The position numbers were made by a program, and so were the translations under genes. 28,864 nt of DNA from positions 1 through 28,864 of the IMG/VR virus record IMGVR_UViG_3300034104_000619, one strand, 5' to 3'. Each line of letters begins with the position of its first letter. Positions within the stretch are counted from its first letter, which is position 1. The notes beneath the pieces are model-generated. The model had not been told where the DNA came from, searched no databases, and saw only the letters and a program-made list of their open reading frames with translations. Below, one piece after another: positions 3,242 to 13,229 of the stretch. Source of the DNA: a virus.

Positions 3242-3677
3242 AATCACCAGCATTACCCCCACTGGACAGTGGAACGAGTTTTTCAAGTTTGAAGTACGCT
3301 TTGACGATGGCGACTTCGGAACGACTTTCGCAAAGTCCACAACTCCCCCTTACGCAGTAGGTGACGACGTTACCTACACCAAGAACGAGAAGGGAACCAT
3401 CAAGATTCAAAAAGCGGGATTCCAAAACAACTACACCGCTCCGTTTGCAAAGAGCGCAGCAGGTAACGACGACCGTGGTAAGTCAATCATCCGTCAGGTT
3501 GCATTGAAGTCTGCGGTTGAAATGTCAGCGGCCTACGTTTCACAAGGCGCAACGATTCCAGTAGATAAGATTTTTGAGCTTGCCGATAAGTTTAACGCTT
3601 GGATGCTCAACGAGCAGAAGGGAGCAACACACGAAGAACACTTCGCTCCACGTGTAGAAGAAAGCAGTCCTTTTTAG
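3234..3677 (+). CDS. single-stranded DNA-binding protein-like
   Basis: This 147-residue protein has a beta-rich N-terminal half (ITSITPTGQWNEFFKFEVRF, then YAVGDDVTYTKNEKG) that fits an OB-type fold. A helical segment (IIRQVALKSAVEMSAAYV) follows, and the C-terminus is acidic and ends EESSPF. The acidic tail ending in PF is the signature by which SSB proteins recruit replication and recombination enzymes. It is transcribed from the promoter at 3025-3054 and ends at a strong terminator. The SF4 helicase is next downstream. The assignment rests on fold-like features and the tail, so another phage ssDNA-binding family remains possible. Confidence 0.7.
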   Translation: MAKITSITPTGQWNEFFKFEVRFDDGDFGTTFAKSTTPPYAVGDDVTYTKNEKGTIKIQKAGFQNNYTAPFAKSAAGNDDRGKSIIRQVALKSAVEMSAAYVSQGATIPVDKIFELADKFNAWMLNEQKGATHEEHFAPRVEESSPF

Positions 3678-3700
3678 TGTGTGTGTTTTTTAGGACTGCT
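3663..3700 (+). other. stem-loop over the SSB stop codon with a GU-repeat loop
   Basis: AGCAGTCCT (3663-3671) and AGGACTGCT (3692-3700) form a perfect 9-bp stem around a 20-base loop. The loop holds the SSB stop codon and GTGTGTGTG followed by a T run. It lies one base before the terminator hairpin. The loop is complementary to the ACACACA leaders of nearby operons (see findings). Confidence 0.65.
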
Positions 3701-3701
3701 G

Positions 3702-3727
3702 GCCCCTCTTCGGAGGGGCTTTTTTTT
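3702..3727 (+). terminator. strong intrinsic terminator after the SSB-like gene
   Basis: A perfect 7-bp GC-rich stem (GCCCCTC/GAGGGGC) closed by a TTCG tetraloop is followed directly by eight T. This is a classical rho-independent terminator and closes the 3080-3677 operon. Confidence 0.93.
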
Positions 3728-11653: not shown

Positions 11654-12187
11654 ATGCAAATAGTACCAATTACCCAAGTGGTTCCCAATACGAGCAACCC
11701 ACGAATTATCAAAGACGATAAATTCAAAAAGCTCGTAAAGTCAATTAAGGAGTTCCCCGAGATGCTAAACCTTCGTCCTATTGTTGTGGATGCGGATATG
11801 GTGGTACTCGGAGGGAATATGCGTTTGAAGGCGTGCCAAGCCGCAGGGCTTACCGAGGTGCCTATTATTGTTGCCGACCAGTTAACACCAGAGCAGCAGG
11901 CGGAGTTCATAATCAAAGACAACGTTGGCTTCGGTGAATGGGACTGGGACTTATTAGCAAACGAATGGGACGAGACGCTTCTCCAAGAATGGGGTCTTGA
12001 CTTACCTATTTTTTTAGCGGAGCCGTCCCACGATGAGTTAATTGGTGAGGAGAAGGGAAAGCCAGCGACTATGAAAATAACCTTTGATAGTCCAGAGCAA
12101 TTACAAAAAGCGGAGATAGATATACAAGAGATTTTAGATAGAAAGTATCAAGGGGCTTATTTTTCAGTTAGTGCTGGGGAGTTATGA
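11654..12187 (+). CDS. ParB/sulfiredoxin-like domain protein
   Basis: The 177-residue protein has an N-terminal ParB-like fold: VVPNTSNPRIIK, LRPIVVDADMVVLGGNMRLKA (GGNMR at 53-57), and LTEVPIIVADQLT. KDNVGFGEWDWDLLANEWD and a WGLDLP tail follow, as seen in ParB-like domains fused to phage DNA methylases. No methylase domain follows here; the next gene, 4 bases overlapping, is the Mom-like enzyme. ParB-type domains of this group bind nucleotides and DNA. It is likely the partner that guides or supports the modification enzyme, by position and family logic only. Confidence 0.82.
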   Translation: MQIVPITQVVPNTSNPRIIKDDKFKKLVKSIKEFPEMLNLRPIVVDADMVVLGGNMRLKACQAAGLTEVPIIVADQLTPEQQAEFIIKDNVGFGEWDWDLLANEWDETLLQEWGLDLPIFLAEPSHDELIGEEKGKPATMKITFDSPEQLQKAEIDIQEILDRKYQGAYFSVSAGEL

Positions 12188-12813
12188 GATTAGAAATTGC
12201 CTCCCATAAAGCAATTAAATATGCTTGTCTAAATTTTCATTACGCTAAAACAATACCAATAAATACTTTTGGCTATTCCGTTTTTAACGATAATAACGAA
12301 TGGTGTGGAGTTGTTTTATACGGAACGGGTGCCTCACCTCAAATAGGCAAACAATACAATTTAAGTCAAGGACAAGTTTTAGAGTTTGTACGGATGGCCT
12401 TAAACGGAAAACAAGACCAACCCGTAAGTAAAATAATGAGCTTGAGTTTAAAACTAATTACAAAAAAAATACCATTATGCAAATTAGTTGTGAGCTACGC
12501 AGACCAAGAGCAGGGACATATTGGAACAATTTACCAAGCGTCTAATTGGATTTACTTGGGAGAGGTGAAGTCGCCTCCAATAATAGAAGGAAAGCACAAT
12601 AAGTCAATGGGCGGTTCCGTTGGTGCGGCAAGGAAAATCCTAAAAAGGGAACCAAGTGTATATTACCCAAAGCCAAAGCATAAGTATATTTACCCACTTG
12701 ACAAGAGTTTAATTGCTATGTGTCAATCTTTAAGTAAACCTTATCCCAAAAAAGAAACCCCGACAAGCGGGGCTACTTTGAGCGAGGAGGTCGACTCGAA
12801 CGCCACTTCTTGA
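12184..12813 (+). CDS. mom: Mom-like DNA adenine modification enzyme
   Basis: This 209-residue protein matches the Mom family of phage Mu, GNAT-fold enzymes that add a carbamoylmethyl group to adenine N6 so that many restriction enzymes cannot cut. Visible features are FHYAKTIPINTFGYSVF near the start, GVVLYGTGAS (42-51), QVLEFVRMAL (64-73), and the strong block VVSYADQEQGHIGTIYQAS (102-120) with NWIYLG after it. KHKYIYP follows at 165-171. The last 20 or so residues are low-complexity, read across the antisense tRNA and its terminator, and may be dispensable. It overlaps the ParB-like gene by 4 bases. Confidence 0.88.
   Translation: MRLEIASHKAIKYACLNFHYAKTIPINTFGYSVFNDNNEWCGVVLYGTGASPQIGKQYNLSQGQVLEFVRMALNGKQDQPVSKIMSLSLKLITKKIPLCKLVVSYADQEQGHIGTIYQASNWIYLGEVKSPPIIEGKHNKSMGGSVGAARKILKREPSVYYPKPKHKYIYPLDKSLIAMCQSLSKPYPKKETPTSGATLSEEVDSNATS
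12748..12774 (-). terminator. intrinsic terminator of the antisense tRNA unit
   Basis: Read on the minus strand, AGCCCCG and CGGGGTT pair (one G-T wobble) around CTTGT, and the hairpin is followed by TCTTTTTT. It starts 7 bases after the tRNA 3' end. On the plus strand it lies in the 3' end of the mom-like gene. Confidence 0.8.
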
Positions 12814-12851
12814 TTGGAATACCAAGCGTGCAACCATTACACTTCCCTCGC
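12781..12851 (-). tRNA. tRNA-Gly(TCC)-like, 8-base anticodon loop
   Basis: On the minus strand 71 bases fold as a cloverleaf. The acceptor arm is GCGAGGG with TCCTCGC (one G-T). The D arm GTG/CAC carries AATGGTT. The anticodon stem CTTGG/TCAAG closes the loop TATTCCAA, and the T loop is TTCGAGT. Starting GCG, U73 as discriminator and C35-C36 are glycine identity features, and the reading TCC keeps T33 and A37. The anticodon loop has eight bases instead of seven, and the T stem (TGGCG/CGACC) has two mismatches, so it may be degenerate or specialised. CCA is not encoded. It has its own promoter and terminator and is the only minus-strand gene seen. Confidence 0.75.
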
Positions 12852-12859
12852 AGGTGAAA

Positions 12860-12891
12860 CAAATATAAAACAAAGATTTAGATGGACAAAA
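12860..12891 (-). promoter_or_regulatory. promoter of the antisense tRNA
   Basis: Read on the minus strand, TTTTG (12891-12887), a 19-base spacer and TATATTTG (12867-12860) match the Bacteroidota consensus exactly. The tRNA 5' end follows 8 bases later. The upstream box lies inside the first codons of the terminase small subunit. Confidence 0.82.
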
Positions 12892-13229
12892 CTGTACAGC
12901 ATAAAAAGGCAATGCTCGATGCGTTGGAAAAATCGTTAGGGGTAGTTACCTCGGCTTGCAAGACGGTTGGAATTGGAAGAACTACGCACTACCTTTGGAT
13001 GGATAGCGACCCAGAATATAAAGCAGCAGTCGATTCAATCGCAGACGTGGCTATTGACTTTGCAGAAAGCCAGTTGCACAAACAAATCAAAGATGGTAAC
13101 TCCACCGCAACCATTTTCTTTCTCAAGACCAAAGGCAAGAAGCGTGGCTACGTTGAGCGTCAGGAAATTGACGCCGTAGGCGGTAAGTTATTCCAAATAG
13201 AGGTACTTGGAGAAGATACGAACGAATAA
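12882..13229 (+). CDS. terS: terminase small subunit
   Basis: This 115-residue protein has an N-terminal helix-turn-helix (SLGVVTSACKTVGIGRTTHY, then LWMDSDPEYKAAVD). It ends with the helical segment STATIFFLKTKGKKRGYVER typical of small terminase subunits. It would recognise the packaging site on phage DNA and present it to the large subunit. It overlaps the large-subunit start by 23 bases. The antisense tRNA promoter lies across its first codons. No separate plus-strand promoter is visible before it. Confidence 0.87.
   Translation: MDKTVQHKKAMLDALEKSLGVVTSACKTVGIGRTTHYLWMDSDPEYKAAVDSIADVAIDFAESQLHKQIKDGNSTATIFFLKTKGKKRGYVERQEIDAVGGKLFQIEVLGEDTNE

Follow-up and report, generated by a model that had tools for sequence, protein, structure and literature searches.

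A tRNA-Gly-like RNA linked to the mom gene across phages, a probable glycine donor for DNA modification

The window analysed here, 28,864 bases of phage DNA taken from a collection of viral sequences (IMG/VR record IMGVR_UViG_3300034104_000619), was found to carry a gene for a tRNA-Gly(UCC)-like RNA of 71 nucleotides (nt) in the region where mom meets terS, the gene for the terminase small subunit. The RNA lies on the minus strand at positions 12781–12851 and is the single tRNA in the whole 28.9-kb record. The flanking genes are on the plus strand: mom, assigned to the GNAT-fold DNA adenine modification enzymes (PF25680, E=1.5e-34; PHROG 1384), occupies 12184–12813, preceded by a gene for a ParB-like protein (11654–12187, PF02195) and followed by terS (12882–13229, PHROG 309 and 4044). 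The RNA scored 31.8 bits with the Rfam tRNA model RF00005, above the gathering threshold of 29, and 79.4 bits with the structural model R1. ARAGORN did not detect it in the window because the molecule is abnormal, having an 8-nt anticodon loop (UAUUCCAA), A8 and a bulged T-stem.

Read along the minus strand, the unit begins with a −33-type element, TTTTG, within the first codons of terS (12887–12891), followed by a 19-nt spacer, the −7 element TATATTTG of a putative Bacteroidota-type promoter (12860–12867), 8 nt, the RNA from 12851 to 12781, a short gap and a predicted intrinsic terminator, a G+C-rich hairpin in the 3' coding end of mom (12756–12774) with a U tract running on to about 12746. 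The end of mom at 12813 falls inside the RNA, so that the final 33 nt of the gene lie opposite it in antisense. An earlier note, made from the sequence alone, had described this arrangement as a self-contained tRNA-Gly unit with its own promoter and terminator, and all of its statements about the sequence proved accurate.

The acceptor stem of the window RNA pairs GCGAGGG with UCCUCGC (the GCG..CGC-U pattern) and is followed by U73, with no encoded CCA. The D-arm is GUGU-AAUGGUU-GCAC, and the anticodon arm, CUUGG-UAUUCCAA-UCAAG, has an 8-nt loop in place of the decoding-competent 7-nt loop with U33. In the T-arm, GGCG-UUCGAGU-CGACC, an A is bulged between C-G and G-C pairs (GGCG/CG-A-CC). Folding of the single sequence was not significantly better than that of shuffled sequences (z −1.2), so the evidence for the structure is comparative: in an alignment of 40 diverse sequences built on the bulge model, 97.3% of cells are paired, both sides have changed in 16 of 20 pairs, and none of 500 shuffles was equally good. 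Origin as a degraded host tRNA was ruled out by this strong covariation.

Relatives were collected by scans with terS, with the window mom and with a second mom type (about 28% identical), and 214 loci were obtained. With a simple structural scan the RNA was located beside mom in 162 of them, as 78 distinct sequences, and in four more loci the RNA is present with an acceptor mismatch. In these collections mom lacks the RNA at two truncated loci (L132 and L154), at one locus of the same family (L119) and at those with a distant mom (L134-136). The RNA accompanies mom across hundreds of phages.

All 78 distinct RNAs share GCG, CGC or UGC, U73 and CC at positions 35-36, features that were required by the scan, although nearly every untruncated locus still passed, and the invariant alignment columns coincide with GCG...CGC/UGC-U73 and the CC. 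The elements G1-C72, C2-G71, U73, C35 and C36, by which glycyl-tRNA synthetase (GlyRS) identifies its substrate, are present in the window RNA and in 78/78 relatives. The bulged A, which sits near position 63 in the 3' half of the T-stem with full pairing around it, occurs in 77 of the 78, the window RNA included; these depart from the unbulged five-pair T-stem. The pairs around it are compensatory, GG/CC being exchanged for AA/UU, AG/CU or GA/UC in some RNAs. A canonical five-pair T-stem was tried and rejected: its helix pairs 61% of cells, compared with 92.5% in the bulge model, and it leaves 39 of the 40 aligned sequences unpaired at one position and 32 at another. In a host tRNA-Gly(UCC) from a Bacteroidetes metagenome-assembled genome (MAG), both the T-stem and the loop are normal. 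The anticodon loop has 8 nt in 46 of the distinct RNAs and 7 nt in 32; a 7-nt loop with U33 is found in 17 only and is missing in 61. The D-loop GG and the T-loop GUUCRA are both present in 51, both absent in 23 and mixed in four.

The linkage of the RNA to mom was assessed in both directions. Among 80 terS relatives, counted only where at least 600 nt of upstream sequence was available, the RNA was found in 33/33 that carry mom and in 0/39 that do not, with none discordant. Both traits were also placed on a TerL tree of 65 loci, on which mom changes 14 times and the RNA 14 times, together, so that they agree in 65 of 65 rows; independent, well-supported pairs agree in eight of eight cases (p=0.0078). 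The window TerL shares 98% identity with the TerL of a phage that has a methylase at the locus, and in the same terS/terL background the RNA stays when the roughly 28%-identical mom is swapped in and goes when the methylase is. In the reverse direction, three degenerate RNA patterns, covering common forms of the RNA but not all, were run against 2.9 million viral contigs; mom lies beside the RNA in 113/115 and 17/17 matches (130/132), many of the matched contigs being closely related to one another. In the two exceptions the contig ends less than 75 nt away on the side expected for mom. ARAGORN misses most copies and RF00005 many, so both understate the linkage. The earlier note had proposed covariance scoring as a check; the window RNA passes the RF00005 cut-off, but many of its relatives score below it. 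Model R1 also scores ordinary tRNAs, yet it is silent in the mom-less loci, which suggests that no tRNA of any kind is present there.

These data bear on the idea that the RNA is an ordinary phage tRNA-Gly boosting translation of GGA and GGG codons, or a +1 frameshift suppressor with an 8-nt loop. The Rfam call, the frequent carriage of tRNAs by phages and the many 8-nt loops would fit it. Such a tRNA would not be expected to keep so strictly to mom or to be missing from close relatives that lack mom, and the bulged T-stem, the 7-nt loops without U33 in other clades and the missing D-arm of some copies are at odds with a decoding function; moreover, GGA accounts for 123/467 Gly codons, and GGA/GGG use is unremarkable. 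We regard this explanation as very improbable. An ordinary-looking tRNA-Gly(UCC)-like gene, its T-stem normal, was nevertheless seen in a Bacteroidetes MAG; it lies upstream of terminase-like genes on a phage-like contig (L378:548-616), and the 547 nt of sequence available upstream of it contain no mom.

In 35 mom-less loci the slot is taken by a ParB fused to an N6/N4 DNA methylase, and the RNA accompanies this cassette in 0/35. That count argues against a counter-defence role, in which the RNA would be a decoy or replacement tRNA resisting host anticodon nucleases and carried along with mom as a fellow anti-defence gene. Mom and phage tRNAs can both act in counter-defence, but an RNA of this kind should then be found with the methylase cassettes as well, where these stand in place of mom, and we find the proposal barely credible.

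Orientation was counted in 98 loci with distinct flanks: 53 have an RNA antisense to mom and 45 a sense copy, the sense copies of some clades beginning at or overlapping the mom stop codon. A downstream T-run follows the RNA in 53/53 antisense loci, 41 of which have a perfect hairpin and U-tract, whereas terminators occur in 0/45 sense loci; TANNTTTG stands close upstream in 39/53 antisense and 13/45 sense loci. The presence of terminators in antisense copies and their absence from sense copies indicate that the layout allows the RNA to be produced in either orientation. From these signals the antisense copies appear to be transcribed independently, whereas the mom transcript probably includes the sense copies. 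What is conserved is adjacency to mom, not antisense orientation, which was considered as a mark of an antisense regulatory RNA and failed in 45 of the 98 loci. In the antisense clades the C-terminal tail of Mom (12751–12813 in the window) is what the strand opposite the RNA and terminator encodes in frame, and the tail ..EEVDxNATS is for this reason common to two distant mom types.

The earlier note had recognised the tRNA-Gly unit and the importance of mom, both of which stand, and had suggested that the RNA might limit mom or terS expression by antisense pairing or colliding polymerases. The position of the window RNA opposite the end of mom, with its promoter overlapping terS, agrees with that suggestion. 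As a general role it does not survive the finding of the same RNA on the mom strand, with no terminator, in nearly half of the distinct loci, and the tRNA identity and structure are conserved past any need of antisense pairing. Control of this kind is thus a highly improbable function; within the antisense clade, mom or terS may possibly be affected locally as a by-product.

The RNA was also encountered in isolated phages and MAGs. In Microbacterium phage Appa an annotated tRNA-Gly(ccc) adjoins mom, and there are 10 such records; in 22 Arthrobacter phage records an RNA copy overlaps the end of mom, unannotated in the one record inspected. Psychrobacter phage vB_PmaS_Y8A has two tandem unannotated copies after mom (L218:2162-2226 and 2234-2299), each lacking the D-arm, folding with the bulged A and followed by CCA. 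A profile search of genome contigs with a Mom alignment gave two loci only; mom with the RNA is present in two MAGs, one of Bacteroidetes and one of Bacilli. The Bacilli RNA (L350:1719-1788) has a bulged T-stem and an encoded CCA. In the Psychrobacter, Microbacterium and Bacilli copies an encoded CCA follows U73.

The AlphaFold2 (AF2) model of the window Mom (predicted local distance difference test, pLDDT, 89.6) matches Mu Mom (PDB 8bv8) at Z 18.7, and this modelled structure shows a GNAT fold. The coenzyme A (CoA) pyrophosphate-binding motif [QR]xxGx[GA] was present in 0/33 Mom proteins, in what was a pattern test only. FemX or other tRNA-using transferases were not among the best 50 fold matches listed for Mom, which carries no weight either way.

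The product of Mu Mom is N6-carbamoylmethyl-adenine, an adenine glycinamide, and to our knowledge the donor for this adenine modification has never been settled. We consider it likely that the phage encodes this RNA as a dedicated glycyl-tRNA, one that takes no part in translation and donates glycine to the neighbouring Mom. Host GlyRS would charge it with glycine, for which G1-C72, C2-G71, G3-C70, U73 and C35/C36 have been kept. The bulged T-stem, together with the abnormal anticodon loop of most copies, would keep the charged RNA off EF-Tu and the ribosome, and Mom, with its predicted GNAT fold and no usual CoA-binding signature, would move the glycyl group from the RNA onto adenine N6 in phage DNA. 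For the chemistry, we infer that N6-glycyl-adenine may form first, and that its free glycine amine could then attack C6 via a five-membered ring and expel the amide. The rearrangement would yield N6-carbamoylmethyl-adenine with all added atoms coming from glycine, and the phage DNA would become resistant to restriction. A glycyl-tRNA donor would explain together the linkage to mom, the identity elements, the lost decoding features and the product. Several parts of this scheme have published counterparts: G1-C72, C2-G71, C35, C36 and U73 constitute bacterial glycine identity, the non-proteinogenic tRNA-Gly that Staphylococcus aureus uses for peptidoglycan evades EF-Tu by loss of pairs 49-65 and 51-63, and the GNAT toxin TacT acts on Gly-tRNA-Gly, reading U73 and G71 (PMC9976931).

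The RNA might instead partner Mom with no delivery of an amino acid, as a cofactor, scaffold or feedback inhibitor bound through the acceptor and T-arm. Its linkage to mom concerns the whole RNA fold, no conserved feature is more unusual than the bulge in the T-arm, and the CC anticodon is lost in one copy, all of which such a partner would accommodate. The best-kept bases are those that GlyRS needs (U73 and C35/C36 among them), however, and a mere binder needs none of them, nor does it need the CCA found after U73 in several copies; the Mom product, too, contains glycine. Such a partnership seems to us unlikely, if less so than the other alternatives.

Several observations weigh against glycyl-tRNA as the donor. 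Acyl-CoA or a 'methylcarbamoyl' transfer is given in published work on Mom (PMC7824862; PMC8072286). The Arthrobacter and Microbacterium copies have a normal T-stem, and the Bacilli RNA has a tiny anticodon loop that has lost the CC. In the loci inspected, the RNA was not found near mom in Mu, Listeria LP-125, ICP1, Vibrio F97, Proteus, Salmonella, Enterococcus, Paenibacillus, Mycobacterium, Geobacillus, Elizabethkingia, Porphyromonas, Pseudomonas, Aeromonas, Methylophilales, Corynebacterium and Polaribacter phages, nor in Enterococcus phiEf11, where ParB-mom is present. With so many Moms lacking a linked RNA, a glycyl-tRNA donor there, if used, must be the host's. The gene at L378, with no mom in the available stretch, is a further counter-point, as it indicates that ordinary phage tRNA-Gly genes exist too. 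A wider proposal, which we favour with less assurance than the dedicated donor, is that the entire Mom family, with that of Mu, takes its glycine from glycyl-tRNA, and that many phages supply the enzyme with a dedicated, ribosome-excluded tRNA-Gly of their own. A literature search, with the primary Mom studies and any paper on 8bv8 outside its reach, returned no report of a glycyl-tRNA donor for Mom.

The slot between ParB and terS holds a swappable DNA-modification cassette. The ParB-like protein that stands alone before mom in the window has its homologue in the N-terminal part of the ParB-methylase fusion of sister phages (for example L016:1785-3014 and L045:1788-2993), and some mom-less relatives have in this slot glycosyltransferase-like and UDP-galactopyranose-mutase-like genes, named by eye from their translations (L079:982-3004). 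Elsewhere in the window, positions 3590-3725 gave a weak match to the small RNA Ysr49 (25.2 bits, far under the cut-off); the stretch consists mainly of a strong terminator-like hairpin, GGCCCCTCTTCGGAGGGGC-T6.

Aminoacyl-tRNAs are known as donors for proteins, peptidoglycan, lipids and peptides, and we know of no tRNA dedicated to a DNA-modifying enzyme. Both halves of the system are of known kinds, Mom and a tRNA-Gly set aside for non-ribosomal transfer; their union would be new. If the proposal is correct, aminoacyl-tRNA also modifies DNA, in a tRNA-dependent DNA base modification, by means of a tRNA that is chargeable yet predicted to be unused in translation. The linkage points to glycyl-tRNA as the Mom donor, and a direct test requires no more than a single enzyme and a single RNA of 71 nt. 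Should the mechanism fail, the linkage alone still defines a new mom-linked RNA family, widespread, mostly unannotated and with a sharp T-stem-bulge signature, which serves as a genomic marker for Mom systems.

Among known systems, the ParB-fused N6/N4 DNA methylase of sister phages occupies the same slot between ParB and terS, and differs in that the RNA is never alongside. Phage Mu Mom (PF25680) shares family and fold with the window Mom, and its S124, mutated in 8bv8, corresponds by the motif SYAD/SFAD to the conserved Ser104 of the window protein; unlike the window, Mu has no linked tRNA, and the donor published for it is acyl-CoA or methylcarbamoyl transfer. TacT is likewise a GNAT protein that recognises Gly-tRNA-Gly by U73 and G71 (PMC9976931), but it acetylates the tRNA-bound glycine with acetyl-CoA, whereas Mom would remove the glycine. 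In the use of the RNA there is a likeness to the Staphylococcus non-proteinogenic tRNA-Gly and FemXAB, in which a tRNA-Gly with an altered T-stem is set apart from translation and feeds a transferase (PMC9976931). The window RNA has a FemX-type altered T-stem in the region of EF-Tu contact, with a predicted effect on EF-Tu binding. The Staphylococcus acceptor is peptidoglycan and the T-stem there has mismatched pairs; here the acceptor would be DNA adenine, the T-stem carries a bulged A, and the RNA is phage-borne and locked to the gene of its enzyme.
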